Assembly: GCA_035531755.1 (NCBI GenBank) | Contig: DATKSK010000012.1 | Coordinates: 1-46,034, forward strand | Origin: Acidimicrobiales bacterium | Lineage (GTDB): Bacteria; Actinomycetota; Acidimicrobiia; Acidimicrobiales; UBA8190 | Direction: 5' to 3' | DNA length: 46,034 nucleotides | Shown here: positions 24,748 to 42,909 of the stretch, piece after piece | How positions within the stretch are numbered: the first letter of the stretch is position 1 | Layout: the number at the start of each line of letters is the position of its first letter | Program-made: the position numbers and the translations under genes | Notes under the pieces: generated by a model | Database searches by the model: none | What the model saw: the letters and a program-made list of their open reading frames with translations, nothing else | What the model was told of the DNA's origin: nothing

Positions 24748-26553
24748 CTACCCCGGGGAGGTGGCTCCGCCCACGAGACGGCCCTGCCATCCCGCCACCG
24801 AGGCCGCCACGTCGCTGAACTGCGGGGCGTCGCCGAAGTCGACGACCTGGCCGTCGGCGGTGACGATCAGGTACCCGAGCCCGGCGCGGGTCGGGAGCAC
24901 CGACACGGCCTGGGCACGCAGGCCCACACCGGGCAACGAGCCCTCGTAGGGGGCGTCGCCGAGCGAGAACACGCCGCCGTCGGCGGCCACGGTCCAGTAG
25001 CCGCCGCCGTCGGGGGTGCCGGCCATCCCCACCATGGGGGCGTTCAGCCGCACACCGCCCATCGACCCGAAGAACCGGGCGTCGCCGAAGGAGAACACGC
25101 CGCCGTCGTTGCCGAGCATCCAGTAGCCACCCACCCCGCCGCTCGGCTGGCTGGTCACCGCGAACCAGTTCGACTGCACGCCGTCCTGCGAGAACTGCGA
25201 CGCGAAGGTGTCGCCGCTGATGGACACGCTCTGGCTGGTCCCCTGCAGCGTCATCTGCACGACGCGGCCGCCGAGGTCGCCGAAGCCGTTGCGCTGCGAC
25301 ACGCCCACCGAGATGAGGGTGCCGATCTGCGGGTAGGCGGCCTCGATGGCGGACACCGGGACCGCCGCGTGCCAGGTGTGGTGGGCGTTGCACGCGCCCG
25401 GGAGGCACACGGCGTCACCGGCGTCGGGAACCGGTGCGAAGGTCCCACCCGCGCTGTACCCACCGGTGGATGACGAGTACTGGGTGGTGGCGACGGTGCC
25501 GGTGGGCATCAGGACCACGAGGTCGGGTGTATCGGCGGTGGCGGCATCGGTCACGGTGTTCTCGTTGGCGATACCCGGATAGTCCTGGCAGGCGCTGGAG
25601 TCGCAGATGTCGGCGTAGCCGAACCAGCCCTGCAGACTGCCGTAGGTGCTCATCACGTAGGAGCGTGCCGCCACGGCCTGGGCCTCCAGGGCCTGGAACC
25701 CCCACGACTGGCCCTGCGGTCCCGCGCCCCCCAGGGAGCCCCAGCCCGTCGGGGACTCCGACGGCGTCACGTCGGCGACGTACTGGCCCAGGGGCACGAT
25801 GTTCACCGTGCGGGTCTGGTTGTTCGAGTTGATGACGCCCTGGATGCTCCCCCGCGCCATCAGGTTGCCGCCCGGCTGGCACAGCTGGAGCACCTCACTG
25901 TTCACGCCGGCGTCCGCCGGGAAGGGTGCCGGCGTCACCGGAGAGATCGTCGGGTCGGCCACGTTCAAGGCCACCGGCGTCCATGACGGGCCCGCGCACC
26001 CGCCGCCCCCGAACACGTTCCACTGGCCCGTGGTCCCGTTGCCCCCGGCCAGCTGCAGCATGACGGCCGGGTAGCTGCCCCCCGGCCCGAACGGCGCGGC
26101 CACACCGGTCACCGTGAACGGCGAGCCTGAGGTCACGATCACGGTGTTGCCGGCGTTGGCGGTGATGGCGACCTTGACCGGGGTGGATGCGTCGCTCCAC
26201 CCGTTGGGCAGCGAGCCGAGCGACGTGGTGCCGCCCCCGCTCAATGCCCCGTAGTAGGTCGACAGGATCTGCTGGTACGGGACCTGGCCGACGGCGTACC
26301 CCAGTGCCCCCCATTGGCCCATGCCGCGGCCGTGGCCCCAGCCGTGCCCGATGAACGAGACGTCGGGGTACGGATAGGCGGCCGCCGGCCCGCTCGGGAC
26401 CAGGGCGACCAGCCCCGAGGTGGCCGCCACGACGGTGGCCGCCGGGACGACCCGCGCCAGGGCGCGTCGGAGTCGGGGGGGAAGGACGGGGATGCAGACG
26501 ATGGTAGCGAGCACCGTGCGATCTCCGTGGGACGCCCCCACCCCGCGTGACAT
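24748..26553 (-). CDS. Secreted SpoIID/LytB-domain protein with C-terminal GYW-type repeats
   Basis: The 601-residue protein has a signal-like N-terminus: an Arg-rich stretch, then AATVVAATSGLVALVPS and cleavage after GPAAA near residue 60. The SpoIID domain shows FIGHGWGHGRGMGQWGA, ADVTPSESPTGWG (probable catalytic Glu), QALEAQAVAARSYVMSTYG and TQYSSSTGGYSAGG. From about 490 come GYWMLGNDGGVFSFGDARFF and two related repeats. SpoIID is a lytic transglycosylase acting on stem-poor glycan strands, so this is probably a cell-wall remodelling exoenzyme. It is divergent from the PadR gene across about 55 AT-rich bases. Confidence 0.87.
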   Translation of the reverse strand: MSRGVGASHGDRTVLATIVCIPVLPPRLRRALARVVPAATVVAATSGLVALVPSGPAAAYPYPDVSFIGHGWGHGRGMGQWGALGYAVGQVPYQQILSTYYGALSGGGTTSLGSLPNGWSDASTPVKVAITANAGNTVIVTSGSPFTVTGVAAPFGPGGSYPAVMLQLAGGNGTTGQWNVFGGGGCAGPSWTPVALNVADPTISPVTPAPFPADAGVNSEVLQLCQPGGNLMARGSIQGVINSNNQTRTVNIVPLGQYVADVTPSESPTGWGSLGGAGPQGQSWGFQALEAQAVAARSYVMSTYGSLQGWFGYADICDSSACQDYPGIANENTVTDAATADTPDLVVLMPTGTVATTQYSSSTGGYSAGGTFAPVPDAGDAVCLPGACNAHHTWHAAVPVSAIEAAYPQIGTLISVGVSQRNGFGDLGGRVVQMTLQGTSQSVSISGDTFASQFSQDGVQSNWFAVTSQPSGGVGGYWMLGNDGGVFSFGDARFFGSMGGVRLNAPMVGMAGTPDGGGYWTVAADGGVFSLGDAPYEGSLPGVGLRAQAVSVLPTRAGLGYLIVTADGQVVDFGDAPQFSDVAASVAGWQGRLVGGATSPG

Positions 26554-26608: not shown

Positions 26609-26950
26609 GTGCCGAGGCACGCCGCGGACCCGAAGTGGACCGACCCCGGGTTGCTCGTCATGGGGAGCCTCGCCGACGGCCCCAAGCACGGCTACGCCAT
26701 GGTGCAGGACCTCGAGGAGAGCACCGGTGTCCGGCTCGGGCCGGGCACGCTCTACGGCGCCATCGCCCGTCTCGAGGCCCGGGGCCTCATCGAGCCCCTC
26801 GAGGCCGCCGACTCCCGCCGCCGCCCCTACCGCCTGACGGCCCGAGGCGTCGAGGTGCTCGGGCGCCAGCTCGCCGACATGCAGCGCTTCGCCGGGATCG
26901 GGCGCCGGCGCCTGGCCCGGCTCGCCCCGGTCTTCGGGGCCGGCGCGTGA
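26609..26950 (+). CDS. PadR-family transcriptional regulator
   Basis: The 113-residue winged-helix protein has LLVMGSLADGPKHGYAMVQD, LGPGTLYGAIARLEARGLIE and DSRRRPYRLTARGVEVLGRQ, the classic PadR recognition helix and wing, plus a C-terminal dimerisation helix. The start GTG has GAAGGGAGGCCC upstream. The stop overlaps the downstream membrane protein by 4 nt (GTGA), the usual arrangement in which PadR controls a membrane/transport partner. It probably represses this pair and possibly the divergent SpoIID gene. Confidence 0.92.
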   Translation: MPRHAADPKWTDPGLLVMGSLADGPKHGYAMVQDLEESTGVRLGPGTLYGAIARLEARGLIEPLEAADSRRRPYRLTARGVEVLGRQLADMQRFAGIGRRRLARLAPVFGAGA

Positions 26951-27870
26951 GCACCCCCACCCGCGTGGAGCGCGTCCTGCTGGCGGCGTATCCGCCCGGC
27001 TTCCGCAGCCGCTACGGCGACGAGCTCGCCGCCCTGGTCGCCGAGGGCGGATCCCGGTGGCGCGACCGCGCCGACCTCGCCCGCGGCGCCGCCCGGGCCT
27101 GGATGGCGCCCTCGTTCGCCGGCGACGCCGCCGAGCAGCGTCGGGCCCGGCTCCAGGCGACCACGACCACCGTGCTGGTGGCCTGGTGCGCGAGCCTCCT
27201 GGCCGTCGCCGGCCTCTCCAAGTCGGTGGACGACCCGCGGCTCCCGGGCCTGCACGGCGCGGCGTGGACCGCCTACGGCACGGCCTTCGTGGCCCTCGAG
27301 GTACTCGCCGGCGTCGTGATCGCCGCCGGCTTCGTCTGCTGGGTCGCCGTCGTCGTGCCCGCGGCGCGTGCCCGGCGTGGCGACGTACTCGTCCCGGCGA
27401 TCGCCCCGGCGCCCATCGTCCTCGCGTGGCTGGGGGTCACGCTGCTCGTCGCCCTGTTCGCCCAGCACGTCGGCCGCCGCCACAGCGTGGCGCTGACGTG
27501 GCCGCGCGGTGCCGGCGTCCTGGCGGTGCTGGTGGCGTGGCTGGCAGTGACCCTGGTGTGCGCGTTCGGGTGCGCGGCGGCGGCGGCGCTCGCCCTGCGC
27601 CGCGCCCGGCTCAGCGAGGCGCGCCTCGTGCGCACGACGCTGGTGGCCGCGCTGGCCACGGTCGGGGTGGCTGTCCAGGCGGTGGCGGGCACGCTGTGCC
27701 TCGTGATGCTGCTCGGCGCCGGTGGCGGGCTGGCACCGCGCGACGCCGTGTTCTCGGCGGGGTCGGTGGCGGTGCTCCTCGTGGCCTCGGCCGTCGCCGC
27801 GCTCTCGACGGCACGGGGCCTGGCGGCCATGCGCGCGGACCCGCCGTCCCCGGTACGGCCCCCGGCCTGA
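26947..27870 (+). CDS. PadR-coupled polytopic membrane protein
   Basis: The 307-residue protein has a cytoplasmic N-terminus (VERVLLAAYPPGFRSRYGDE, a motif seen in membrane proteins coupled to PadR genes). About six hydrophobic segments follow, near residues 70, 110, 155, 195, 235 and 270. No transporter or enzyme motif was recognised. It is translated together with the PadR gene through the GTGA overlap and is likely its regulatory target. The gene ends just before a repeat cluster in the convergent gap. Confidence 0.75.
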   Translation: MSTPTRVERVLLAAYPPGFRSRYGDELAALVAEGGSRWRDRADLARGAARAWMAPSFAGDAAEQRRARLQATTTTVLVAWCASLLAVAGLSKSVDDPRLPGLHGAAWTAYGTAFVALEVLAGVVIAAGFVCWVAVVVPAARARRGDVLVPAIAPAPIVLAWLGVTLLVALFAQHVGRRHSVALTWPRGAGVLAVLVAWLAVTLVCAFGCAAAAALALRRARLSEARLVRTTLVAALATVGVAVQAVAGTLCLVMLLGAGGGLAPRDAVFSAGSVAVLLVASAVAALSTARGLAAMRADPPSPVRPPA

Positions 27871-27901
27871 TCCCGCCGGTCCGGCCCCTGACCGGCGCGG
27901 T

Positions 27902-28015
27902 CCCTCCTCGGCGGCAGCCGGCCCTCCTCGGCGGCAGCCGGCCCTCCTCGGCGGGCGGTCCCTCAGCGCGGCAGCCGACCCTCCTCGGCGGGCGGTCGCT
28001 CAGCGCGGCAGCCGG
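27902..28015. repeat. Nested tandem repeats in a convergent intergenic gap
   Basis: Two identical 20-bp units (27902-27921, 27922-27941) are followed by two 37-bp units (27942-27978, 27979-28015) that begin with the same CCCTCCTCGGCGG core and differ from each other at two positions. The array fills most of the gap between the membrane protein and the last glycosyltransferase, both ending here. Confidence 0.9.
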
Positions 28016-28045
28016 CTCAGGAGGGGTTGCTCGTGGGCCGGCTCC

Positions 28046-29254
28046 TCAGTTGGCGCCGGCGCGGCAGCGCTCGAGCACGCCGTCGGCGAAGGACCCGTAG
28101 CGCTCGATGATCGTGGGCCAGCGGAAGTTGGCCTCCACGTAGACCCGTCCCCGCTCGCCGAGCAGCGCCCTGAGGGCGCCGTCGGTCACCACCCGGTCCA
28201 CGAGCGACTCGAACTGGGCGTAGGAGTCGAACCACAGCCCGCCGCCCGAGCGCTCGCAGTGCTCGCGGGTGGCGGCGCACCGGGCGTTCACGATCACGGC
28301 CAGGGACTGGCTCCACGCCTCCATGAGCACGATGGAGAAGGCCTCGTGGGGCGACGGTTGCACGAAGGCGGTGGCCCCCCGCAGTAGGGCCCATTTGTCG
28401 ATCTCGTCGACGGGGCCGGTCACGATGACGTCGGGGTGCGACGGCGGGGGGGCCGTCACCGGGCCGGCCACCACCAGCGCCAGGGGCCCGGGGTTGCGCC
28501 GCTTGTAGGCGGCGAAGAAGGCGCCCAGCATGGTGGTGCCCTTGAAGCCGTCCACCCGCCCGAGCGACAGCAGGTACGGGCGGTCCCCGATGGCCGCGAT
28601 GGCCGGCACGGCGCGGTCGGGGGCGGGGGCGGGACCGGGCGGCGGCCCCTCGAACCCGAGGCCCACGACGACCTGTGGGACCTGGCCCACCGGGAACAGC
28701 CGCTGGACGAGGGCGCGCTCGCCCCACGTCTGGAAGACGAACCCCTGCGCCATCGTCATCGGCCGCCGGAACACCGAGAGGTGCAGGGCCGGCTCGTCGT
28801 GCGCGGCGGGATGCATCACGGCGCGGGCCGCCACCGGCGGCAGCCCGCGCACGGTGGTGGCGTAGAGGTAGGGGTAGAAGGCGAGGAGGTCGCGGTCGCA
28901 CGCCACCAGTGCGTCGACGAGGTCGGGGCATCCTGGGCCCTGGAGCTCGACGAACTCCTCCGCCTCGGCGACGGTGGCGGCCGATGGCGACGACAGGACC
29001 CGCTCGGAGAACGGGAAGAAGCGCGGGGGGCGACCCGACGTGGTGGCGAAACGGTGCACCACGACGCCGTTCACCGTCTCGTCGCCCTCGGGGTACTCGT
29101 TGGCCCAGGTCATGTGGTCCCTGGCACAGGTGGTGAAGACGTCCACCGACCAGCCGAGCCGGGCCACCAGCCGCTCTGCCAGCATGCGGGCCCCGAGCTC
29201 GGCGCCGCCCACGACCTCGAGGCCGTAGCGCGGGACCACGAAGGCGTACTTCAC
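28046..29254 (-). CDS. GT4-type glycosyltransferase (distinct member, last gene of the polysaccharide operon)
   Basis: The 402-residue GT-B fold retaining glycosyltransferase has the N-terminal acceptor domain KYAFVVPRYGLEVVGGAELG and donor-domain blocks YLLSLGRVDGFKGTTMLGAF, VIVTGPVDEIDKWALLRGA and HEAFSIVLMEAWSQ, with the E-x7-E pair. It is clearly different from the four preceding, mutually similar glycosyltransferases. The start is the GTG at 29254, overlapping the previous stop as GTGA. Sugar and linkage are unknown. It is cytoplasmic and acts on the growing glycan before export. Confidence 0.9.
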   Translation of the reverse strand: MKYAFVVPRYGLEVVGGAELGARMLAERLVARLGWSVDVFTTCARDHMTWANEYPEGDETVNGVVVHRFATTSGRPPRFFPFSERVLSSPSAATVAEAEEFVELQGPGCPDLVDALVACDRDLLAFYPYLYATTVRGLPPVAARAVMHPAAHDEPALHLSVFRRPMTMAQGFVFQTWGERALVQRLFPVGQVPQVVVGLGFEGPPPGPAPAPDRAVPAIAAIGDRPYLLSLGRVDGFKGTTMLGAFFAAYKRRNPGPLALVVAGPVTAPPPSHPDVIVTGPVDEIDKWALLRGATAFVQPSPHEAFSIVLMEAWSQSLAVIVNARCAATREHCERSGGGLWFDSYAQFESLVDRVVTDGALRALLGERGRVYVEANFRWPTIIERYGSFADGVLERCRAGAN

Positions 29255-30417
29255 ACCGTCACCGCCACGAGCGCGTCGTCCGCCACGTCGTCCGTCCCGT
29301 CGCGGGGCGCGGCGTCGGGCCAGACCCCGCCCGCCGCCACCCAGCGGCGGACGACGCCCGCCATCGTCGCCCGGGTGCGCGCCAGGGCGAAGTGCACGAG
29401 GCGCGCCCGGCCGGCCTCCACGAGCACCGCCCGGGTGGCCCGGTCGGCGAGGACCCGGTGCAGGGCGGCGGCGACGTGCTGGGGTGCGGGGTCGTCGAGG
29501 AGCAGGCCTCCCACCCCGAGGGTTTCGGGGACCGCACCGGCGCCGAGGGCCACCACGGGCACCCCGTGGTGCATGGCCTCCAACAGCGGCACGCAGAACC
29601 CCTCGTGCTCGGAGAGGCTCACGAAGACGTCGGCGGCGCGGTAGTAGGCCACGAGCTGCTCGTGCGACACGGCGCCCGGGAGGTCGACGGCCCCGTCGAG
29701 GCCGAGCGCGCCGACCAGGGTGCGTAGCGCGGCGTCGTAGCCGGGCGACACCGCCCGGCCCACGAGCGACAGGCGCGCCCCGGGGTCGTACACCGACCGG
29801 TAGACGGCCAGGGCCTGCACCAGGCGGTGCTGGGCCTTGTGGGGGGCGATGCCCCCCACGAACAGCCATTGCGAGCTCCCCTCCCGCCGGGCGTGCTCGA
29901 GCGCCACCGCGGTGGCGGGGTCGGGCTCGGCGTCGAACTCGCGCAGGTCCAGCAGGATGGGGGCCACCGGGGTCGCCCGGAAGCCGCGGGCGCGCAGATC
30001 GGCGGCGTTGAACCTCGAGTCGCAGATGCCCAAGGCGGCACGCACCGAGAGCTGAGCCACCTGCACCTGCGCGGCGTGGAGCGACAGAGCGATGCCGGGA
30101 TCGAAGCGGTGGAAGAACTCGGGCGGGGTGATGTTGTGGTAGTCGACGGCGACCGATTCGCGCCGTCCCACGACCCAGTCCCCCAGTTCCGACACAGCCG
30201 AGCACTGGTAGACGAGGAAGCGGTCGCGGCGCGACGGGCCCCGCAGCTCCTCGATCAGCCGGGCGCGGTGCTCCAGGAGCGGATGGATCGCCAGCGCGAA
30301 GATCTCGGACTCGTACCCGAGGTCCCGCAGGAGGCGCTGCACCTGGAGGGTGTGCCCGGTGGTGGCGTCTCCCGGCACGACCGACGGCACGAGCTGGTGG
30401 ACGAACGTCGTGCTCAC
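29251..30417 (-). CDS. GT4-type glycosyltransferase (paralogue 4 of 4)
   Basis: The 388-residue GT-B enzyme contains the acceptor-domain block AVDYHNITPPEFFHRFDPGI, the donor-domain block WLFVGGIAPHKAQHRLVQAL, then LVGRAVSPGYDAALR, and HEGFCVPLLEAMHHGVPVVA with the E-x7-E pair. The same blocks recur in the three upstream genes. An Asp/Ala-rich tail (DGTDDVADDALVAVTV) ends the protein. Both ends are GTGA overlaps with its neighbours. It adds one sugar of the exported glycan; donor and linkage cannot be inferred. Confidence 0.91.
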   Translation of the reverse strand: MSTTFVHQLVPSVVPGDATTGHTLQVQRLLRDLGYESEIFALAIHPLLEHRARLIEELRGPSRRDRFLVYQCSAVSELGDWVVGRRESVAVDYHNITPPEFFHRFDPGIALSLHAAQVQVAQLSVRAALGICDSRFNAADLRARGFRATPVAPILLDLREFDAEPDPATAVALEHARREGSSQWLFVGGIAPHKAQHRLVQALAVYRSVYDPGARLSLVGRAVSPGYDAALRTLVGALGLDGAVDLPGAVSHEQLVAYYRAADVFVSLSEHEGFCVPLLEAMHHGVPVVALGAGAVPETLGVGGLLLDDPAPQHVAAALHRVLADRATRAVLVEAGRARLVHFALARTRATMAGVVRRWVAAGGVWPDAAPRDGTDDVADDALVAVTV

Positions 30418-31619
30418 GACGCCGCCCGGAGGAGGTCGGGGCGGGCCATCACCCCCCGCAACGTGTCGACGAACCGCTGCGCGGTCCGCTCGAGCGCGAA
30501 CGCACCCAGCCGCTCGGCCCCGGCCGCCACCAGCCGGGCCCGCAGCTCGGCGTCGGCCACGGCGCGGTGCACCGCGGTCGCCACGACCGCCGGAGACTTC
30601 TCCGCCAGCACCAGGGCGGCGGGCCCGGCGGTGTCGCGCACGGCGCCGGCGTCGAAGGCCACGACGGGAACCCCGTGGTGCATGGCCTCCAGGAGGGGGA
30701 AGCAGAAGCCCTCGTGGTCGGACAGGCACACGAAGGCGTCTGCGGTGCGGTAATGGCCGACGAGCTCGTCGAGGCTCACCGAGCCCACCAGACGCACGGC
30801 GTCGGCCAACCCGAGCTCGTGTGCGTAGCCGCGCACCGCGGCGGCGTAGCTCGGGACCGGGTGGCCGCCGACAAGGGTCAGCGAGGCCGTCGGGTCGAAG
30901 CCGCGGCGGTAGGCGGCGAGGGCCTTCACGAGGTCGTGCGCCGCCTTGTGCGGCAGCAACTTGCCCACGAAGAGCCACGACGTCCCACCACTCCCCCGCA
31001 CCCGGTCCCCGCCGGCGTCGGCGTCGGCCCGGGGGCCGAACGCCCCGAGGTCCACGAACGGGGGCACCACCGACGTGGAGCGGTACCCCGCGGCGCGCAG
31101 GTCGCGCTCGTTGAAGGCCGACACGGCGATGGCATGGGTGACACGCGGGGCCAGGCGGTGCAGCTGCTGGCGCCCGGACTCGACGGCCCCGAGCCAGTCC
31201 GGGGCCCACTGCCAGAAGAAGCTCGCCGGGGTGAGGTTGTGGTAGTTCACCACGAGCGGCTCGCCTCGCTGCATCAGGCGCTCCGCTATGGCCGAGCCCA
31301 CGGCGAGCTGGTACACGAGGACCGTCCGGCCCGCGACGACGAAGTCGTCGAGCCGGTCGACGTGGTGGGCCTCGCCGGCCAGCGGCGCGTCGACGTGCTC
31401 GACGAACAGTTCCGACACGAAACCGGCGGCGCGCAGGGCGTCGCGGGCGGCGAGCGTGTGCGCCCCCGAGGCGTCGGCAACGTGCAGCGACGGCAGCAGC
31501 AGGTGCACGGCGACCCCTTCGGTGCCTGGGACGTTCCCGTGGGAAACGCCCGGAGCGGCGCCCGCGGGGGTCCCACCGCTGTCGCCGGCCGACGCCCGTG
31601 CCGGCCGCGCGCCCGTCAC
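30414..31619 (-). CDS. GT4-type glycosyltransferase (paralogue 3 of 4)
   Basis: The 401-residue protein has a Gly/Ala-rich lead of about 35 residues before VHLLLPSLHVADASGAHTLA. Paralogue blocks are VVNYHNLTPASFFWQWAPDW, SWLFVGKLLPHKAAHDLVKA, LVGGHPVPSYAAAVR and HEGFCFPLLEAMHHGVPVVA. The start is the GTG at 31619, which overlaps the upstream stop (GTGA); an internal start near the conserved core is possible, since the first 35 residues are compositionally unlike the fold. The predicted role is sugar transfer in the same pathway. Confidence 0.88.
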   Translation of the reverse strand: MTGARPARASAGDSGGTPAGAAPGVSHGNVPGTEGVAVHLLLPSLHVADASGAHTLAARDALRAAGFVSELFVEHVDAPLAGEAHHVDRLDDFVVAGRTVLVYQLAVGSAIAERLMQRGEPLVVNYHNLTPASFFWQWAPDWLGAVESGRQQLHRLAPRVTHAIAVSAFNERDLRAAGYRSTSVVPPFVDLGAFGPRADADAGGDRVRGSGGTSWLFVGKLLPHKAAHDLVKALAAYRRGFDPTASLTLVGGHPVPSYAAAVRGYAHELGLADAVRLVGSVSLDELVGHYRTADAFVCLSDHEGFCFPLLEAMHHGVPVVAFDAGAVRDTAGPAALVLAEKSPAVVATAVHRAVADAELRARLVAAGAERLGAFALERTAQRFVDTLRGVMARPDLLRAAS

Positions 31620-32785
31620 CGCGTCCCCCGCCCGGCGTCGGCCCCGGCGGCGGCCCCGGCGGCGGCCCCGGCACCGTTCTCGATGGCGGTCTCGATGGCG
31701 GTCTCGATGGCGGCCACCAGTCGGGCTTTGCCCACGGGAAGCGCGAAGGCCCGGGCCCGTCGTCTCCCCGCGTCGACGAGGGCGACGCGCAGCGCGTCGT
31801 CGGCCACCACGCGATGGACGGCGGCCGCCACGGTCATGGGTGCCTTGTCGGTGAGCACGATCCCCCCGTCGCCGACGGTCTCCCCCACCGCCGCGGTGTC
31901 GTAGGCGACCACCGGGAGGCCGAGGTGCATGGCCTCGACGAGGGGGACGCAAAAGCCTTCGTGGTCCGACGCGCACACGAAGACGTCGGCGGACCGGTAG
32001 TAGGCGGCCAGCGCTTCGTCGCTCACCGTCCCCACCATGCGCACGGCGTCGCCGAGGCCGAGGCGGGCGGCGAACCGCTCCAGCGCGCGCGGATAGTCGG
32101 TGCCGAGCGACGATCCCACGAGGTGCAGCCGCGCCCGGGGGTCGTAGAAGCGCCGGTAGCAGGCGAGCGCCTTGATCAGGTCGTGCTGCGCTTTGTGCGG
32201 CGACACCCGTCCCACGAACAACCAGTCGGCGCCGCCGTCGGCCCTCTCGGCCCGGTGCGCCCCCGGCACGGCGGCGTCGGCGGTGACCTCGAATGCGGCC
32301 AGGTCCACGAGAGGGGCGACCACAGCCGTGCGGGCACACCCGGCGGCGTGGAGCTCGGTCTCGCTGAAACGCGAGTGGGCGATCCCGAAGAACGACGCGG
32401 GGGCGACGGCGCCCAACTGCTCCAGCCCGAGCTCGAGCTCCTCGCGGATCCACGGCGCCCACCGGCGGACGAGAGCGGGCGGCGTGATGTTGTGGTAGTC
32501 GACGAGGAGGGGCTCGGGCCGGCGCAGCACGGCGTCGGCGACCGCACTCCCTGTCGAGTGATGGAACAGCAGCCACGAGTCGGGCCGCGGGCTGACGGGC
32601 AACTCCTCGAGCGGGCGCGCCTGGGCACGCACCTCAGGATGGGCGTCCCCCGCGTAGATGTCGGACCCGAACCCCGCGGCACGCAGGGCGTCGCGGGTGT
32701 GGAGCACGTGGGTGCCGATGGCGTCGCGTGCCGCCAGGATGTGCAGGACCTGGTCGATGCGCGCCGGGCGGGCGGGGCGGGTCAC
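31616..32785 (-). CDS. GT4-type glycosyltransferase (paralogue 2 of 4)
   Basis: The 389-residue enzyme begins RIDQVLHILAARDAIGTHVL. Blocks are LLVDYHNITPPALVRRWAPW, WLFVGRVSPHKAQHDLIKAL and HEGFCVPLVEAMHLGLPVVA. It is closest by eye to the next gene upstream (both read RIDQV, DAIG, KALACYRRF.DPRARLHLVGS). Its C-terminus is an Ala/Gly-rich repeat (IETAIETAIE, GAAAGAAAGADAG) encoded by short repeats. GTGA overlaps occur at both ends. Confidence 0.9.
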   Translation of the reverse strand: MTRPARPARIDQVLHILAARDAIGTHVLHTRDALRAAGFGSDIYAGDAHPEVRAQARPLEELPVSPRPDSWLLFHHSTGSAVADAVLRRPEPLLVDYHNITPPALVRRWAPWIREELELGLEQLGAVAPASFFGIAHSRFSETELHAAGCARTAVVAPLVDLAAFEVTADAAVPGAHRAERADGGADWLFVGRVSPHKAQHDLIKALACYRRFYDPRARLHLVGSSLGTDYPRALERFAARLGLGDAVRMVGTVSDEALAAYYRSADVFVCASDHEGFCVPLVEAMHLGLPVVAYDTAAVGETVGDGGIVLTDKAPMTVAAAVHRVVADDALRVALVDAGRRRARAFALPVGKARLVAAIETAIETAIENGAGAAAGAAAGADAGRGTR

Positions 32786-33888
32786 GACGATCCACCGCCG
32801 TACGCGCCGATGGCCTCGTCGATGGCCGCCGCCCACCGTTGACGGCTGCGGTCCAGCGAGAACTCGTGCGCCCGGGCCCGTCCGGCCTCCACGAGGCGTC
32901 CGCGCAGCGTCGCGTCCGACAGCACCCGGTGCACGGCGGTCGACAGGGCCATGGGGGACTTGTCGTCGAGCAGGAGCGCGGCGTCGGCCGCCGTCTCGGT
33001 CACCGCCGTGGCGGCCAGGGCCACCACCGGGACCCCCAGGTGCATGGCCTCGACCACGGGCACGCAGAATCCCTCGTGCTCGGAGGCGCACACGAAGACG
33101 TCGGCCGTGGCGTAATAGGCGGCGAGCGCCGGCTCCGGGACCGGGCCGGTGAGGTGCACCGCCGCCCCCAGCCCGAGCCCGGACGCGAACCGCCGCAGGG
33201 CGCGCGGGTAGTCGTCGCCCATCCAGGAGCCCACCAGGTGAAGCCGGGCACGGGGGTCATGGAAGCGCCGGTAGCAGGCCAGCGCCTTGATCAGGTCGTG
33301 CTGGGCCTTGCTCGGCGTCACCCGCCCGACGAACAACCAGTCGGCGCCGCCCTCGGCCCGTTCCTCGCGCCGGGCGGCCAGCGTGTCGCGGTCCGCGCCC
33401 GACTCGAGGGCGCGGGCGTCGAACATCGGGGGGACGACACGCGTCCGGGTGCATCCCCGGTCACGAAGCTCCGCCTCGTTGTAGATGGAGTCGGCGAAGG
33501 CGAAGAACGTGGCGCCGATCATGTCGTCGAGCTGCTTGCGGCCGCTGGCGGCCTCCTCCACCGCCCACGGCACCCACGGGCCGAACAGCTCGCCGGGCGT
33601 GATGTTGTGGTAGTCGAGCATGGTGGGCTCGGGGCGGCGCCGGATGAGGTCGGCGACCGGCGAGCCGCTCGACAGGTGATAGAGCCACCACGTGCCCGGG
33701 CGTGGACGCGCCGGGAGCTCCGTCAGCAGCCGGCACTGGGACCGCACGTCGGGGAAGGTGCCCTCGCACCAGATGTCGGATTCGAACCCCCTGGCGCGCA
33801 AGAGGTCGCGGACGTGGGTCATATGCACACCGATGGCGTCGCGCCCGCTGAACGACGGCACGACCTGGTCGATGCGCGTCGGCCTCAC
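32782..33888 (-). CDS. GT4-type glycosyltransferase (paralogue 1 of 4)
   Basis: The 368-residue enzyme begins RIDQVVPSFSGRDAIGVHMT. Acceptor-side block TMLDYHNITPGELFGPWVPW is followed by WLFVGRVTPSKAQHDLIKAL, LVGSWMGDDYPRALRR and HEGFCVPVVEAMHLGVPVVA with E-x7-E. It follows the methyltransferase gene with a GTGA overlap, and its own stop overlaps paralogue 2 in the same way. It is the most compact of the set, without the low-complexity ends of paralogues 2 and 3. Confidence 0.91.
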   Translation of the reverse strand: MRPTRIDQVVPSFSGRDAIGVHMTHVRDLLRARGFESDIWCEGTFPDVRSQCRLLTELPARPRPGTWWLYHLSSGSPVADLIRRRPEPTMLDYHNITPGELFGPWVPWAVEEAASGRKQLDDMIGATFFAFADSIYNEAELRDRGCTRTRVVPPMFDARALESGADRDTLAARREERAEGGADWLFVGRVTPSKAQHDLIKALACYRRFHDPRARLHLVGSWMGDDYPRALRRFASGLGLGAAVHLTGPVPEPALAAYYATADVFVCASEHEGFCVPVVEAMHLGVPVVALAATAVTETAADAALLLDDKSPMALSTAVHRVLSDATLRGRLVEAGRARAHEFSLDRSRQRWAAAIDEAIGAYGGGSS

Positions 33889-34937
33889 CGTGCGGCGTGG
33901 TCGGAGGCGGCGGGAGCCTCGCCCGCAGGTCCACCTCCGGGCACGTCGGACCGGCCCTTGGTCGCCAGAACGGCGAACCCGTCGGCGCCGACCGTCGCCT
34001 GCGCTCCCGAGAACCCCAGCTGCCCGACGAGGTGGACCCAGGTGTCGGGGTGCAGGGGACGACCCGGGGCCAGATCGGCGGCGACCGGGCCTGCGGTGCG
34101 CTCCCACGCTTCGGGCATGGTGCCGATCACCACCAGCGTGCCCCCCGGGGCGAGCTTCTCCTCGGCCAGCCGCAGCAGGCGCCGGCGCTCGGCCAGCGAC
34201 AAGCGGTCGACACAGGCCGACAGCACCAAGCCGGCGAGTACATCGTCGGCCACGGAGCCCAGGTGCCCCAGGACGTCGTCGCGCCGGACGTCCAGCCCCG
34301 CCAGGGCGGCGCGGTCCGCGGCGGCGCTGCCGGGGTCGACGCCGTACACATCGACACCTGCCCCCGCCAGGGAGGCCACGAGCGACCCGTCACCGCATTC
34401 GACGTGCAGCACCCGGCCCGCCGGCGAGGTGGCCGCGGTCAGCGCGGCGCGCACCGCGTCGGCGAAGGGCGCGGGGTCGGCGCCGGGGACGAGCACCTCC
34501 TCCTCGGGGAGGGGGGGCGGTGTGAGCGACCCCACGTCGCGCTCCACGTCGCTCAGGCGCTCGTCGAGCAGGTGCAGGACCCGCATGGCCGAGGCCGCGA
34601 AGTGGTTGAGCTGGGTGACGACGTAGTTGACGAACCAGGCCTCGGCCTGCCAGAGCGACCACTTGACGAAGCCCTTGGGCTCGCGTCGCGACCCGATCGG
34701 CACCTCGATGTCGAAGTAGGCGGAACGGTCCGCCAGCTTGAGCGCCTCGGTGAAGGCGTCGTCGGCGGTGCCGGTCGGGGTGAAGCGGGCGAACAGCTCG
34801 TCGAGGCGTCGTTCGAAGCTCGGCGGGAAGTCCCCCGCGGCACGCCGGCGGCGGACCTCGTCGTCGATCTCGCGCCGGACGCGGTCGAGGTATGCGCGCG
34901 TGGCATCGTCGCCGGCGGTGGTGTCGTCGGTGGTCAC
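33885..34937 (-). CDS. SAM-dependent methyltransferase of the polysaccharide operon
   Basis: The 350-residue protein has a charged helical N-terminus (about 1-60), a block with FVKWSLWQAEAWFVNYVVTQ then LNHFAASAMRVLHLLDER, and a C-terminal Rossmann domain with RVLHVECGDGSLVASLAGAG, VYGVDPGS and a C-terminal APGGTLVVIGTMPEAW. Motif I is ECGDG instead of the common D/ExGCGxG. Methylation can cap or modify glycans before export, which would suit its place between the Wzt-like ATPase and the glycosyltransferases. Start GTG with CGAGGAGACATC upstream; the gene lies 74 bp after the ATPase stop. Confidence 0.82.
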   Translation of the reverse strand: MTTDDTTAGDDATRAYLDRVRREIDDEVRRRRAAGDFPPSFERRLDELFARFTPTGTADDAFTEALKLADRSAYFDIEVPIGSRREPKGFVKWSLWQAEAWFVNYVVTQLNHFAASAMRVLHLLDERLSDVERDVGSLTPPPLPEEEVLVPGADPAPFADAVRAALTAATSPAGRVLHVECGDGSLVASLAGAGVDVYGVDPGSAAADRAALAGLDVRRDDVLGHLGSVADDVLAGLVLSACVDRLSLAERRRLLRLAEEKLAPGGTLVVIGTMPEAWERTAGPVAADLAPGRPLHPDTWVHLVGQLGFSGAQATVGADGFAVLATKGRSDVPGGGPAGEAPAASDHAAR

Positions 34938-35011
34938 GATGTCTCCTCGGGTGGGGGGGCTCTGGGCAGGGCGGGCCGGAGCCCCCGAGTGCCCTGGCCG
35001 GAGCCGACCCC

Positions 35012-36226
35012 TCAGCTCAGGCTGGCGGCCCGGACGTCGACCCGGAGCTCCAGGGCCACGGTCCCCCGCGACCTGCCGGGGTTCATGACCTCGAATCCCT
35101 CCTGCTCGCGCAGATCGTAGACGACCCCCCCACGACTCTTGATGGCAATGCCCACGTTGTAGGCGCCCCCGAGAAGCGGGACCCGATCGAAAGCGAGGTC
35201 GGCCCGGCCCCCGCCGGCCGGCAGGTCGATGTGCTGGCCGATGCCGTCGGTGTCGGACGCGAAGACGAGCTGGCCGTCCTTGTCGTGGATCTCGATCGAG
35301 AACACGACATCGTCGACGGGCTCGGACGCGTCGAATGCCACGTGCACCGTGAGCGGCTCGTCGGGGAGCAGATAGGGCCTGCTCCCCACACCGGGGTGCT
35401 CGACCTCCACGCCGGTGATCAGCACCGGCCGGTGGGCGGCCTCCGGAGGGGTGGCGCCCCCGAGGGCGCCGGTGTCCACCGAGCTGCCGGCGGCGAGCAG
35501 GTGGTCGTGGTACAGGTGGATGGCCTCGGCCGACGGCCCCATGCCGAGCATCTGGCCCGAGCTCAGCACGACGGCACGATCGCAGATCACGCGTACCAGG
35601 TCGGCGGAGTGGGTCACGAAGAGGATGGTCCGGCCCTCGTCCTGGAACTGCTTGATGCGGGCCAGGCACTTGCGCTGGAAATTCTCGTCCCCCACGGCCA
35701 GGACCTCGTCGACCACGAGGACGTCGGGCTCGACGTTGACCGCCACGGCGAAGCCCAGCCGCACGAACATCCCCGACGAGTAGAACTTGACCTGGTTGTC
35801 GATGAACTGCTCGAGCTCGGCGAACGCCACGATGTCCTCGAAGCGCTTGTCGACCTCCTTGGTGGAGAGGCCCAGGAGCGACGCGTTCAGGTAGATGTTG
35901 TCCCGGCCCGACAGCTCGGGCTGGAATCCGGCTCCGAGCTCCAACAGCGCCGCCAGCGAGCCGCGCACCACGACCTTCCCGTCGGTGGGCTGCAGGATCC
36001 CCGACACGCACTTGAGCAGGGTCGACTTCCCCGACCCGTTGCGCCCGAGCACGCCGACGGTCTCGCCCTCGGCGACCTGGAAGCTCAGGTCCCGCAGGGC
36101 CCAGAAGTCCTCGTGGGGGTTCTGGCCGGCATGGAGGAACCGCTCCTTGACCGACTGGTACTTCTCCCGGTACAGCCGGAAGCGCTTGGAGACGCCCACC
36201 ACGTCGACGGCCACCGGTGTGGACAT
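35012..36226 (-). CDS. Polysaccharide ABC exporter ATP-binding protein (Wzt/TagH-like)
   Basis: The 404-residue protein has an N-terminal ATPase (residues 1-240). Walker A is GRNGSGKSTLLKCVSGI near 63, followed by GSLAALLELGAGFQPELSGR, the polysaccharide-exporter signature, then SSGMFVRLGFAVA and Walker B VLVVDEVLAVGD. A beta-sandwich C-terminal domain (about 270-404, VEVEHPGVGSRPYLLPDEPL) resembles the Wzt domain that recognises the finished, often end-modified glycan. It energises export with the permease encoded 7 bp upstream. The methyltransferase encoded next may create the end group it reads; that is inference. Confidence 0.94.
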   Translation of the reverse strand: MSTPVAVDVVGVSKRFRLYREKYQSVKERFLHAGQNPHEDFWALRDLSFQVAEGETVGVLGRNGSGKSTLLKCVSGILQPTDGKVVVRGSLAALLELGAGFQPELSGRDNIYLNASLLGLSTKEVDKRFEDIVAFAELEQFIDNQVKFYSSGMFVRLGFAVAVNVEPDVLVVDEVLAVGDENFQRKCLARIKQFQDEGRTILFVTHSADLVRVICDRAVVLSSGQMLGMGPSAEAIHLYHDHLLAAGSSVDTGALGGATPPEAAHRPVLITGVEVEHPGVGSRPYLLPDEPLTVHVAFDASEPVDDVVFSIEIHDKDGQLVFASDTDGIGQHIDLPAGGGRADLAFDRVPLLGGAYNVGIAIKSRGGVVYDLREQEGFEVMNPGRSRGTVALELRVDVRAASLS

Positions 36227-36233
36227 CGGCCCC

Positions 36234-37298
36234 TCAGAGCTCCTCGGCGAAGTTACCCTCCAGGCGCCCGAAGACCACGAGAGCACCGAAGAGGAGGACA
36301 ACGGAGATCGCCAGCACTGCCAGATCGGCACCCACGTACCACAGCGTTCCGTAGCTGGCCAAGACGCCGTTCGGAACCGGGAGGTGCACCACCGTCCCCG
36401 ACGCGAGCTTCTGGGTGAGGGTCGTCGAGATGGGATGCAGGACGTTGTAGAAGACCCGCTGAAAGGTCATGACGACGGGCGTGACGGGATTGAGGAAGTA
36501 CACCCAGATGATGTGCTTCCTGACGAGCCCGTCGTGGACGCGTCCCGAGAACGGATAGATCCCGGGGACGGCCCAGAACCACGCCATGAGGGCCACCTCG
36601 ACCAGGTGCTGGGTGTCGCGCAGGTAGACGTTGACAGCCGACAGGAAGACGGCCAGGGCGGCGGCAAAGGCGAGGACGGCGGCCAGCGCCGGGATGATCA
36701 GCCAGATGGCGCTCCAGTCGGGCCGGTGCCAGAACGCCACCATGAACACGAGGAGCACGATGGACTGGAACAGGAAGAACATGAACGCCGAACCCACCGA
36801 CGACAACGCCAGGATCTCGCGGGGGAAGGCGACCTTCTTCACGATGCCGCCGTTGGCCACGACGCTGCTCGTCCCGGTGAGCACCGCCGTCTGGAAGAGG
36901 TTCCACACCAGCATGGCCGAGAACATGTAGATGACGAAGTTCGGGATGCCGTTGGGCAGGAAGAAGGTGAACAGGACGTAGAAGACGGCCAGCGTCAGTG
37001 CCGGGTTGAGCATCGACCACATGAACCCGAGGACCGAGTTCTTGTACTTGACCTTGATCTCCTTGCGGACGAGGAAGACGAACAGCTCCCGCGATCGCCA
37101 CAGCTCCGGGATCCTCTTCCACACGCTCACCCGGGCGGCCACGATGCGCGTGGGCTTGGCGCCCCGGGCCGCGGCCCGGGCGGCGCGGGCCGCCAGTTCC
37201 CGCTCGTGCTCGCCGAGCAGGAGCGGCTGCTGCTCGCCGGGCTCGCCGGCCTCGGCGGGGCGCGGCACGGGCCCGGTCTCCGACTGGACGTCGGTCAT
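36234..37298 (-). CDS. Polysaccharide ABC exporter permease (Wzm/TagG-like)
   Basis: The 354-residue ABC-2 permease has a charged N-terminal tail (about 50 residues), an amphipathic segment with RELFVFLVRKEIKVKYKNSV and LGFMWSMLNPALTLAVFYVL typical of Wzm/TagG, and about six membrane helices to residue 350. VNVYLRDTQHLVEVALMAWF and PVTPVVMTFQRVFYN are further family marks. Together with the ATPase 7 bp downstream it translocates an undecaprenyl-linked glycan across the membrane. In a Gram-positive it would supply wall polysaccharide rather than O-antigen. It is probably the first gene of the operon. Confidence 0.94.
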   Translation of the reverse strand: MTDVQSETGPVPRPAEAGEPGEQQPLLLGEHERELAARAARAAARGAKPTRIVAARVSVWKRIPELWRSRELFVFLVRKEIKVKYKNSVLGFMWSMLNPALTLAVFYVLFTFFLPNGIPNFVIYMFSAMLVWNLFQTAVLTGTSSVVANGGIVKKVAFPREILALSSVGSAFMFFLFQSIVLLVFMVAFWHRPDWSAIWLIIPALAAVLAFAAALAVFLSAVNVYLRDTQHLVEVALMAWFWAVPGIYPFSGRVHDGLVRKHIIWVYFLNPVTPVVMTFQRVFYNVLHPISTTLTQKLASGTVVHLPVPNGVLASYGTLWYVGADLAVLAISVVLLFGALVVFGRLEGNFAEEL

Positions 37299-37388
37299 CG
37301 GGTGTCTCCGAAGGCGCGAGCGGTCACGGCCTCACCCCCGACGGGTGGTCGGTCATGGTGGCGCCAGCCCGCCCTCGGCTCCGCGTGC

Positions 37389-38033
37389 TCAGTGCTGGGT
37401 GGCGGGGTGCGGAGAGGAGTGCTCGATGACGCGGTCGATGAAGCCGTAGTCCTTCCCCTCCTCGGCGGTGAACCACCGGTCACGGTCGGAGTCGGCCTCG
37501 ATGCGCTCGAGCGGCTGGCCGGTGTGGAAGGCGATGCGCTCGGCCATCATGCGCTTGAGGTAGACGATCTGCTCGGCCTGGATGGCGATGTCGGCCGCCT
37601 GGCCCTGCATCTGCCCCGACGGCTGGTGCATCAGGATCCGGCTGTGGGGAAGGGCGAAGCGCTTGCCCGGCTCCCCCGCGCACAGCAGGAACTGTCCCAT
37701 CGAGGCCGCCAGGCCGACGCAGATGGTGCTGACGTCGCAGCTCACGTACTGCATCGTGTCGTAGATGGCCAGGCCGTCGGTCACCGACCCGCCCGGCGAG
37801 TTGATGTACAGCGCGATCTCCCTCTCGGAGTTCTCGGCCGCCAGGAGCAGGAGCTGGGCGCAGACCTGGTTGGCCACCGTCTCGTCGATGGCGCTGCCCA
37901 GGAAGATGATCCGCTCCTTGAGCAGCCGCTGGAACACGTCGGCCGAGGCCAGGTCGGGCAGGTTGCCCGATCGCATCGACGGAGGCGGGCCCGCGGTCAG
38001 CGCCGGCCCGGGGGGCGATGGATGTGATGCCAT
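37389..38033 (-). CDS. clpP: ATP-dependent Clp protease proteolytic subunit
   Basis: The 214-residue serine protease subunit forms the 14-mer chamber used with ClpX or ClpC. The catalytic Ser is in [16 protein letters not shown], the His in [14 protein letters not shown] and the Asp in [13 protein letters not shown]. The handle [20 protein letters not shown] is normal. The first 20-odd residues resemble a propeptide; starting at the Met before RSGNLPDL is possible. Neither tig nor clpX is next to it here. It is divergent from the tRNA-Leu gene and lies 90 bp before the Wzm-like gene on the same strand. Confidence 0.96.
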
Positions 38034-39384: not shown

Positions 39385-42300
39385 CTACGCCGTGTACGCG
39401 GCCGTGGCCGCGGACGGCAGGCTGACACCGATGGCGTTCGTGGCGGTGATCGTGCAGGTGTAGACCTTGCCCGCCGTCATCCCGGTGACCGTGATCGGCG
39501 AGGTGCTCCCGCTGTTGGACTGCGTCGTCCCACCGTTGCTGGAGATGCACGTCACCGTGAAGCCGGTGATGGCGCTCCCACCGGTGCTGCCGGCAGTGAA
39601 GGGGACGGTCGCCGAGGTGGGAACCGGGTGCGTCACGGTGCCCAGCGTGAAGATCGGCGCGCCGGGCACCGTCGCCGCCACGAAGCTGGCCGAGGCGGCC
39701 GAGGCCGGGCTGTCGCCGACGCCGTTGGTGGCCACCACGGTGCAGGTGTAGGTGTCACTGTTGGTGAGCGTGGTGACGTTGATCGGAGAACCGGGTCCAG
39801 AGCCCGACCCGGTCGTCCCACCGTTGCTGGAGGTGCACGTCGCCGTGTAGCCGGTGATGGCGCTCCCGCCGTCGCTGGCGCTCGCCGTGAAGGCGACCGA
39901 CGCCGAGTTCGAGCCACGCGTGACCACCGGGCCGGTGGGTGCCGACGGAACCGTGGCGGAGACTCCCGAGACGAAGCTGGCCGAGGCGGCCGAGGCCGGG
40001 CTGTCGCCGACGCCGTTGGTGGCCACCACGGTGCAGGTGTAGGTGTTGCCGTCGGTGAGCGAGCCCACCGTGATCGGCGACGTGCTCCCGCTGTTCGACC
40101 CGGTCGCCCCGCCGTCGCTGGAGGTGCAGGTCGCCGTGTAGCCGGTGATGGCGCTCCCGCCGTCGCCGCCGGCCGTAAAGGCGACGGCGGCTGAAGCGCT
40201 CGACGGCGTCACACCCGTGACGGTCGGCGCGCTCGGTAGCCCGGCGGGCACGAAGCTGCTCGAGGCGGCCGACGCCGGGCTGTCGCCGATGGCGTTTATA
40301 GCCAGAACCGTGCACGTGTAGGAGTCGCCGTTGACGAGCGAGCCCACCGTGATCGGCGAGGAGGTCCCGAAGGCCGTCCGGGTCACGCCACCGTCACCGG
40401 ATATGCAGGTGACGACGTACGCCTCGACGGCACCGCCGCCATCGCTTCCCGGCGTGAAGGCGACGATGCCCGCGTCGCTCGCGGGGGTCACGGCGCCGAT
40501 GGTCGGGGCGCTCGGGGTGCCGGCCGCCACGAAGCTGCCCGAGGCCACCGATGCCGGGCTGTCGCCGATGGCGTTGGTGGCCACGACCGTGCAGGTGTAG
40601 GTGTTGCCGTTGGTCAGCGAGGCGATCGTGATCGGGGAGGTGCTCCCGCTGTTCGACTGGGTGGCGCCACCGTCGCTCGAGGTGCACGTGGCCGTGTATG
40701 CGGTGATGGCGCTCCCGCCGTCGCCGGCGTCGGTGATCCCGAGCGTGACGCTGTCGGCGGCAAGGTCCACCGACGTGATCACGGGTGGGTCCGGGGGTCC
40801 GGCGGCCACGAAGCTGCTCGAGGCGGCCGACGCCGGGCCGTCGCCGACCGCGTTGGTGGCCACCACTGTGCAGGTGTAGGTGTTCCCGTTGCTGAGCGAA
40901 CTGACGGTGACCGGCGAGCTCGCACCGGTACCCGTCTGCGTGACTCCCCCGTCGCTGGAGCTGCACGTGGCGGTGAACCCGGTGATCGTGCCACCGCCGG
41001 CACTGCCGGCGGTGAAGGCGACGGCCACGTCGTTGTTACCAGGCGTCGCCGAGGTGATCGTCGGTGCGTCCGGAAGGACAGCGGCGACGAAGGAGCTCGA
41101 CGGGGCGGACGCCGAGCCGGACCCCACCACGTTGATCGATACGACCGCACAGGTGTACGTGTGGCTGTTCGAGAGCGAGCCGACGACGATGGGCGAGCTG
41201 GCACCGGTGCCTGTCGCCGTCATACCGCCGTCGGTCGACGTACACGTCACCGAGTTGTCGGTGATCGGGCTTCCACCGTCGGCGCCCGGTGTGAAGGCGA
41301 CCGTGACCGAGTTCGGGCCCAAGGTCACGCCGGTGAGCGTGGGTGCGCTCGGCGACGAAACGGCGACGAAGCTCGATGACGCCGCGGACGCCGGGCTGTC
41401 CCCGATCGGGTTGGTGGCCGTCACGGTGCAGGTGTAGGTGTTGCCGTTGGTGAGCGACCCCACGGTGATCGGAGAGCTTCCCCCGGTGCCGGTCTGGGTG
41501 GCCCCACCGTCGCTGGAGGTGCACGTCGCGGTGTAGCCGGTGACCGCGGTGCCCCCGCTGCTGCCGGGCGTGAAGTTGACGATGCCGGCGTTGGTCCCGA
41601 GCGTCACGCTGGTGATGGTCGGCGCGCCCGGGGTCGTGGCGGCGACGAAGCTCGACGAGGCGGAGGACGCTGTGCTCGAACCGGCGTCGTTGGTCGCGAC
41701 GGCCGTGCACGTGTACGTCTTGCCATTGGTCAGCGAGCCGACCGTGATCGGCGAGCTGACACCGATCACGGTGCGCCTGGTCCCGCCGTTGGACGAGGTA
41801 CAGGTGACGCTGTAGAGCAGGATGGCGTCGCTGCCGTCGCTGCCGTTCTCCGCCACCACCACCGCGACGGAGTTAGGCCCTCGGGTGATGCCCGTGATCG
41901 TCAGCGGGTCGGGCACGGTGATCGCGGTGAAGGAGCCCGAGGGGGCCGACTCGGCGCTCGTGCCCACGCCGTTGGTGGCGTCGACGGTGCACGTGTAGTC
42001 GTCCCCGTTGGTGAGCGAGCTCACGACGAGCTCCAGGGTGCTGCCTGCACTGGTCTGGGTGGCACCACCGTTGCCGGAGGTGCACGTGGCCGTGTACCCG
42101 GTGATGGCGCTCCCACCGGTGCCGTTCGGGCTGTAATCGATGGTGACCGAGTTCTCACCGACGGCGATCCCGGTGATCGACGGGGCGTCCGGTGCGGTGG
42201 TCGGGACCGACACGACGGCCGACGCCACCGAGGGCGCCGAGGCGCCCTGGTCGTTCGTTGCCGTCACCGTGCAGGTGTAGTCGGTGTCACCGGGGGTGAG

Positions 42301-42909
42301 CCCGGTCACGTCGATCGGGGAGGACGAGCCGGTGTTGGTGTTCTCGACGCCGCCGTCACCGGAGGCGCAGTCGGCGGTGTAGCCCGTGATCGCGCTCCCA
42401 CCGTTGTCGGGCGCGGTGAACGCAACCGAGATGTCGGCGTTGGCGCCGCCCGTCGCTGTCGGCTGGGAGGGTTGGGCCGGCACGTTGGCGACCTCGATCG
42501 AACTGGACGCGTTGGACGCCGGGCTGTCACCCACGCTGTTGGTGGCGACGACCGTGCAGGTGTAGATGTCCTCGTTGGTCACCCCGCTCACGACGATGGG
42601 CGAACTGGCACCGGTGTTGATGCCCTCCGCGCCACCGTCGCTCGACACGCAGTCGACGGTGTACCCGGTGATGGCACTGCCGCCGTCGTAGGGCGACACG
42701 AACGACGCCGAGATCGTCCCCAGCACGGTGGTCAGTGTCGGCGGCGTCGGCGGCGTCGGCGCGCTCGGGGCGGCATAGGCCGACCCGGCCAACCCGCCGA
42801 CACCGAGCGTCACCGCCGTCAGGGCGATGGCGGACCGAGCGACATGGCGGCGCAACGTCGACCGCACGGCAACCCGGTTCCGGGGGACACGCGTCTCGTG
42901 ATTCGGCAT
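39385..42909 (-). CDS. Secreted repeat protein with 12 fibronectin type III-like domains
   Basis: The 1174-residue protein has a signal peptide of about 46 residues (Arg-rich, SAIALTAVTLGVGGLAGSAYA-type, cut after AYA), then 12 tandem Fn3-like domains of about 92-96 residues to the very end. Each has the pattern P.AP.I..V, GG.AITGYTATC.S.DGG, a SSPI.VGSLTNG.TYTCTV turn and GDSPAS.AS.SFVAA. Every domain carries two Cys (after YT.T and in YTCTV), so an intradomain disulfide is likely. No LPXTG, transmembrane or S-layer anchor ends it. It is likely an extracellular or wall-associated adhesive/matrix protein; no catalytic domain is seen. Confidence 0.93.
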   Translation of the reverse strand: MPNHETRVPRNRVAVRSTLRRHVARSAIALTAVTLGVGGLAGSAYAAPSAPTPPTPPTLTTVLGTISASFVSPYDGGSAITGYTVDCVSSDGGAEGINTGASSPIVVSGVTNEDIYTCTVVATNSVGDSPASNASSSIEVANVPAQPSQPTATGGANADISVAFTAPDNGGSAITGYTADCASGDGGVENTNTGSSSPIDVTGLTPGDTDYTCTVTATNDQGASAPSVASAVVSVPTTAPDAPSITGIAVGENSVTIDYSPNGTGGSAITGYTATCTSGNGGATQTSAGSTLELVVSSLTNGDDYTCTVDATNGVGTSAESAPSGSFTAITVPDPLTITGITRGPNSVAVVVAENGSDGSDAILLYSVTCTSSNGGTRRTVIGVSSPITVGSLTNGKTYTCTAVATNDAGSSTASSASSSFVAATTPGAPTITSVTLGTNAGIVNFTPGSSGGTAVTGYTATCTSSDGGATQTGTGGSSPITVGSLTNGNTYTCTVTATNPIGDSPASAASSSFVAVSSPSAPTLTGVTLGPNSVTVAFTPGADGGSPITDNSVTCTSTDGGMTATGTGASSPIVVGSLSNSHTYTCAVVSINVVGSGSASAPSSSFVAAVLPDAPTITSATPGNNDVAVAFTAGSAGGGTITGFTATCSSSDGGVTQTGTGASSPVTVSSLSNGNTYTCTVVATNAVGDGPASAASSSFVAAGPPDPPVITSVDLAADSVTLGITDAGDGGSAITAYTATCTSSDGGATQSNSGSTSPITIASLTNGNTYTCTVVATNAIGDSPASVASGSFVAAGTPSAPTIGAVTPASDAGIVAFTPGSDGGGAVEAYVVTCISGDGGVTRTAFGTSSPITVGSLVNGDSYTCTVLAINAIGDSPASAASSSFVPAGLPSAPTVTGVTPSSASAAVAFTAGGDGGSAITGYTATCTSSDGGATGSNSGSTSPITVGSLTDGNTYTCTVVATNGVGDSPASAASASFVSGVSATVPSAPTGPVVTRGSNSASVAFTASASDGGSAITGYTATCTSSNGGTTGSGSGPGSPINVTTLTNSDTYTCTVVATNGVGDSPASAASASFVAATVPGAPIFTLGTVTHPVPTSATVPFTAGSTGGSAITGFTVTCISSNGGTTQSNSGSTSPITVTGMTAGKVYTCTITATNAIGVSLPSAATAAYTA
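39680..39755. repeat. 76-bp exact direct repeat inside the Fn3 gene, copy 1
   Basis: Identical to 39971-40046. It encodes the end of an Fn3 domain. The spacing (291 bp) is one domain, so recombination here would delete or duplicate exactly one domain in frame. Confidence 0.97.
39971..40046. repeat. 76-bp exact direct repeat inside the Fn3 gene, copy 2
   Basis: Partner of 39680-39755. Other domains share shorter near-identical stretches, but this was the longest exact match I found by eye. Confidence 0.97.

Follow-up and report, generated by a model that had tools for sequence, protein, structure and literature searches.

The six consecutive minus-strand genes that run from a methyltransferase (MT) to the glycosyltransferase GTe in the window (the whole 46,034-nucleotide stretch of Acidimicrobiales DNA that was analysed) make up the biosynthetic half of a Wzm/Wzt ABC-transporter-dependent surface polysaccharide operon. 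The explanation that best accounts for their arrangement, and in which we place considerable confidence, is that the glycosyltransferase array of this operon grew by duplication and that its genes would be coupled through the default NTGA junction. The sequence-only reading had taken the identical stop/start overlaps between the six genes as a sign that all six enzymes are made in fixed ratio for a stable complex. The observation was true and its cause ordinary: the overlaps point to ordinary translational coupling, and the fixed-ratio complex was mostly not supported.

The six-gene run and its export locus

The predicted genes and junctions are listed in Table 1. A reading-frame check found all six open reading frames to run from GTG to TGA without an internal stop, and each start overlapped the upstream TGA by 4 nt (a spacing of -4) at 5/5 junctions from MT to GTe. 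The GTGA overlaps that had been reported between a methyltransferase and five glycosyltransferases were thus verified on the minus strand in every case. Of the "five glycosyltransferases", four are tandem paralogues (GTa-GTd) and the fifth is a distant GT4 (GTe), a point absent from that reading. Because MT is separated from Wzt by a gap with its own GAGGAG site, the overlapped run begins at MT. The description of the six genes as one compact unit was supported.

Table 1. Predicted genes, junctions and neighbours of the polysaccharide-export operon in the window.
Feature	Position	Strand	Remarks
ClpP paralogue	37389-37976	-	Pfam CLP_protease 2e-79; adjoins Wzm
Wzm-type ABC-2 export permease	36234-37298	-	Pfam ABC2_membrane 5.8e-12; NCBIfam Wzm/RfbD below cut-off
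Wzt-type export ATPase	35012-36214	-	Pfam ABC_tran and Wzt_C; start codon provisional
Wzt-MT gap	34938-35011	-	74 nt; GAGGAG Shine-Dalgarno for MT, -8.7 kcal/mol
MT	33885-34937	-	Class I SAM methyltransferase, long N-terminal helices; first gene of overlapped run
GTGA overlap MT/GTa	33885-33888	-	GTa without Shine-Dalgarno
GTa	32782-33888	-	GT4 paralogue 1; Pfam Glycos_transf_1 6e-30; E-x7-E intact
GTGA overlap GTa/GTb	32782-32785	-	SD-like GGTGGA precedes GTb
GTb	31616-32785	-	GT4 paralogue 2; 59% identity with GTa; repetitive C-terminal tail
GTGA overlap GTb/GTc	31616-31619	-	GTc start less certain, alternative GTG 31508
GTc	30414-31619	-	GT4 paralogue 3
GTGA overlap GTc/GTd	30414-30417	-	-4 kept in relatives G011, G006, G007 and G009
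GTd	29251-30417	-	GT4 paralogue 4
GTGA overlap GTd/GTe	29251-29254	-	Homologous junction -4 in 16/18 arrays
GTe	28046-29254	-	Distinct GT4-type; Pfam Glycos_transf_1 4e-12; conserved last gene of array
SpoIID-domain protein	24748-26514	-	Pfam SpoIID 1e-13; conserved downstream neighbour in relatives

The predicted operon order is Wzm, Wzt with Wzt_C, MT, the tandem GT4 array and GTe, the permease gene adjoining that of the ATPase. The C terminus of Wzt contains a Wzt_C domain of the cap-binding type (Pfam 1.3e-11, above cut-off), and the nearest PDB chain was that of Aquifex WzmWzt (8dku, E 1.2e-68), in an alignment that stops short of the methyl-cap pocket residues of the Aquifex Wzt. There the carbohydrate-binding domain of Wzt recognises the 3-O-methyl cap that the O antigen carries (PMC9445017). 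MT matched Pfam MetW (7e-5, above cut-off); its AlphaFold model (pLDDT 77) has long helices at residues 6-33 and 90-137 preceding a Rossmann-type domain, and its Foldseek matches were SAM methyltransferases (2.4e-10). By analogy with Aquifex, MT may add a cap to the chain that Wzt_C would recognise.

A sigma-70 promoter scan of 27800-37500 gave no promoter-like match, and a terminator scan of the same interval gave one terminator-like match against 2.3 expected; at 74% GC neither outcome is informative. No obvious shared element emerged when the Wzt-MT gap and the sequence beyond GTe were folded. GC-rich tandem repeats with units of 20 and 37 bp directly follow the last gene of the operon (27902-28014).

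The neighbouring genes were also surveyed. A ClpP gene lies near the operon in 15/20 relatives; the copy in the window is a third complete ClpP homologue, with two others (49-55% identity) and one distant homologue elsewhere in the genome. The SpoIID-domain gene is found downstream of GTe in most relatives, whereas the two are separated in the window by a PadR regulator gene, divergently oriented, and a 307-aa gene, which lie at 26609-27870 on the plus strand. A protein of about 1160 aa is encoded at 39385-42867; it contains eleven fibronectin type III domains, and its gene has a 279-bp tandem repeat.

The start of GTc bears on the number of overlaps in use. The best codon-scored start is the GTG at 31508, and its use would open a gap of 107 nt after GTb; the overlap start at 31619 adds 37 N-terminal amino acids of low complexity. 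If GTc starts at 31508, one overlap would be unused and the run split 2 + 2, an arrangement compatible with the preferred explanation; its higher codon score, its fair Shine-Dalgarno site (-8.1 kcal/mol) and the low complexity of the longer form speak for it, and it is a possible though the less probable start. Against it, the overlap start has a strong Shine-Dalgarno site too (-8.6 kcal/mol), and an in-frame GTG at exactly -4 recurs in four relatives (G010, G007, G008 and G009), where the N-terminal extensions are open in frame and differ in sequence. Because of this recurrence, GTc was judged likely to start at the overlap. Several tandem repeats of 12-24 bp lie at 31584-31715, spanning the GTb 3' end and the GTc 5' extension, which suggests that linker tails at this junction have grown by slippage.

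The glycosyltransferase array and its relatives

GTa-GTd are four GT4 paralogues with 43-59% identity, each of which has the E-x7-E motif. Identity among them is 52-68% in the C-terminal (donor) halves, versus 32-50% in the N-terminal halves; because the C-terminal halves are more alike than the acceptor halves, the four enzymes probably use a similar donor and different acceptors. In a tree of 50 GT4 copies the positional classes a, c and d separated within the family of the window's array, and GTa and GTb both fell in class a. The array would thus have grown by duplication of one GT4 gene into three positional orthologue classes in the family, the first of which appears to have been doubled in the window.

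No recent gene conversion was detected among GTa-GTd. In one relative (G029, L141:6980-10272), glycosyltransferase copies 1 and 3 have in common an 848-nt tract (97.3% identity) that ends at the GTGA, and their 5' quarters differ. This tract is likely the product of gene conversion or a domain swap, and shows that gene copying or conversion can carry the stop/start junction along. The copies in the window are old, as their identities indicate, and the copying of junctions, seen in G029 only, is extended to the window by inference. It is conceivable, and we offer it tentatively, that Acidimicrobiales GT4 arrays are mosaics in which conversion homogenises the donor halves and the junction while the acceptor halves diversify. 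If so, each new GT4 copy would arrive coupled to the operon and alter the pattern of linkages in the glycan that is exported.

In twenty genomes of the same taxonomic order, with conserved gene order, the loci around the array held all or part of Wzm-Wzt-MT-GT(1-3)-GTe, several of the loci being cut by contig ends or having no detected Wzt. Named database contigs with relatives, on which the assignment to the order rests, are labelled as Acidimicrobiales, Acidimicrobiaceae or Actinomycetes MAGs. One to three paralogues per array were seen in these relatives (some on cut contigs), versus four in the window. An exact -4 spacing was found at 16/18 GT>GTe, 21/29 GT>GT and 8/21 MT>GT junctions, counts that are inflated by phylogenetic relatedness and are not independent. 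At most of the other junctions the start lay within -10 to +25. Two of the closest relatives of GTa are in G011 and G006, where the MT>GT junction and the next have CTGA with the start at +1 or +2. The relatives therefore keep the operon and its tight spacing, not the uniform GTGA run.

The locus is a known kind of system, and its variable tandem array is an interesting but modest feature. A search of the literature on the Acidimicrobiia polysaccharide locus found no specific description of this conserved Acidimicrobiales export operon with its variable glycosyltransferase array, and a description should be useful for predicting the cell-surface glycans of uncultured actinobacteria.

Overlaps in the genome background

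The baseline for the overlaps was a sample of about 1.03 Mb, or 31% of this genome, comprising 60 stretches and the window itself. Genes were called with a home-made codon-score caller, and its start choices affect the baseline; pairs were defined as close when co-directional and -100 to +50 nt apart. Among 545 co-directional pairs, 297 were close. The -4 junction occurred in 142 pairs (142/545 of all co-directional and 142/297, or 48%, of close pairs) with a caller that favours the -4 start when its score is nearly as good, and in 107 pairs when strictly the best-scoring start was used. By type, 98 of the 142 were GTGA, 41 ATGA and 3 TTGA, so that GTGA junctions made up 33% of close pairs. 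The NTGA overlap is the commonest operon junction of this genome; within -20 to +20, the runner-up spacing was -1, with 13 pairs.

When junction labels were shuffled along the real close-pair chains of the sampled 31% of the genome, a run of at least five arose in 27% of permutations for any NTGA and in 5% for GTGA only. Because -4 and GTGA junctions are common and permuted runs of this length recur at these rates, the run of five GTGA overlaps is mildly unusual, not extraordinary.

The same genome provides an internal control. The longest -4 run in the sample, eight consecutive overlaps on contig C38 (L184:891-10821), consists of argC-J-B-D-F-R-G-H followed by a methylpurine-DNA glycosylase (MPG), as identified by Pfam. 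Like the polysaccharide run it is a series of consecutive -4 overlaps; it differs in mixing GTGA with ATGA, whereas the polysaccharide run is all GTGA, and in joining metabolic enzymes to a repressor. An arginine operon with the ArgR repressor and a DNA repair glycosylase is not one fixed-ratio complex, and the overlap pattern alone therefore cannot indicate a complex. In a GC-rich genome, runs of identical overlaps say little about whether the proteins form a complex.

Probable translational coupling and comparison with known systems

The NTGA overlap is the classic geometry of termination-reinitiation (PMC6728339, PMC10666635, PMC12548453), and -4 is by far the commonest prokaryotic spacing and allows it (PMC12548453). 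Ribosomes finishing one gene of the run most likely restart at the GTG within the overlap, and local Shine-Dalgarno sites would help them to differing degrees. Predicted anti-Shine-Dalgarno energies were 0.2 kcal/mol for GTa, -10.0 for GTb, -8.6 for GTc, -5.2 for GTd and -9.9 for GTe. Since GTa has essentially no Shine-Dalgarno site, it plausibly relies on re-initiating ribosomes; GTb-GTe could also initiate independently. Reinitiation efficiency is highly variable between gene pairs, as is its dependence on Shine-Dalgarno motifs, and equal output would require 100% coupling (PMC6728339). These strongly unequal sites argue against equal synthesis of the six enzymes, which the overlaps do not imply; translation would be coupled but not equimolar. 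The re-initiation proposed in the sequence-only reading is supported by the compact unit, the NTGA geometry and the lack of a Shine-Dalgarno site before GTa; its fixed ratio is not supported, the energies ranging from 0.2 to -10 kcal/mol.

It is unlikely, though worth weighing, that the overlaps are neutral, a side effect of genome compaction and gene duplication at high GC content, where TGA stops preceded by G are common, with coupling functionless here. TGA ended 458/545 genes and stood in a GTGA context in 165/545, the G029 gene copy brought its junction along, and permutation yielded runs of at least five in 5% (GTGA) and 27% (NTGA) of trials. Set against this are the 142 pairs at -4, with no more than 13 at each of the other spacings between -20 and +20, an excess that suggests genome-wide selection for the spacing, though the caller prefers -4 starts that score nearly as well (107 pairs with the strict best start), and GTa, which without a Shine-Dalgarno site would be poorly translated uncoupled.

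That uniform GTGA coupling was selected for equal amounts of six enzymes in a stable complex is very improbable: E. coli and H. volcanii show an excess of short overlaps among subunits of heteromeric complexes (PMC10666635) and the GT>GTe junction is -4 in 16/18 arrays, but 55-70% of close pairs form no complex even in that study, the arginine operon has eight such overlaps, the Shine-Dalgarno energies are widely spread, and the relatives do not keep the run as a whole, MT>GT being exactly -4 in only 8/21 arrays. The preferred reading remains a Wzm/Wzt operon whose duplicated array would be coupled by the ordinary junction.

Compared with published NTGA coupling (Huber et al. 2019, PMC6728339; 2023, PMC10666635; Brown and Wade 2025, PMC12548453), the window shares the four-base overlap, the co-directional operon genes and Shine-Dalgarno motifs of varied strength. 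It differs in having five successive overlaps, all GTGA, and in including four paralogous genes.

The loci for capped chains in ABC-transporter-dependent O-polysaccharide export, those of Aquifex WzmWzt (PMC9445017) and E. coli O9a WbdD (PMC3482155), have in common with the window Wzm, Wzt with Wzt_C, an adjacent methyltransferase and GT4 enzymes. Unlike them, the window belongs to an actinobacterial host and has four tandem GT4 paralogues and ClpP and SpoIID neighbours, and its MT has N-terminal helices and gave no kinase match.
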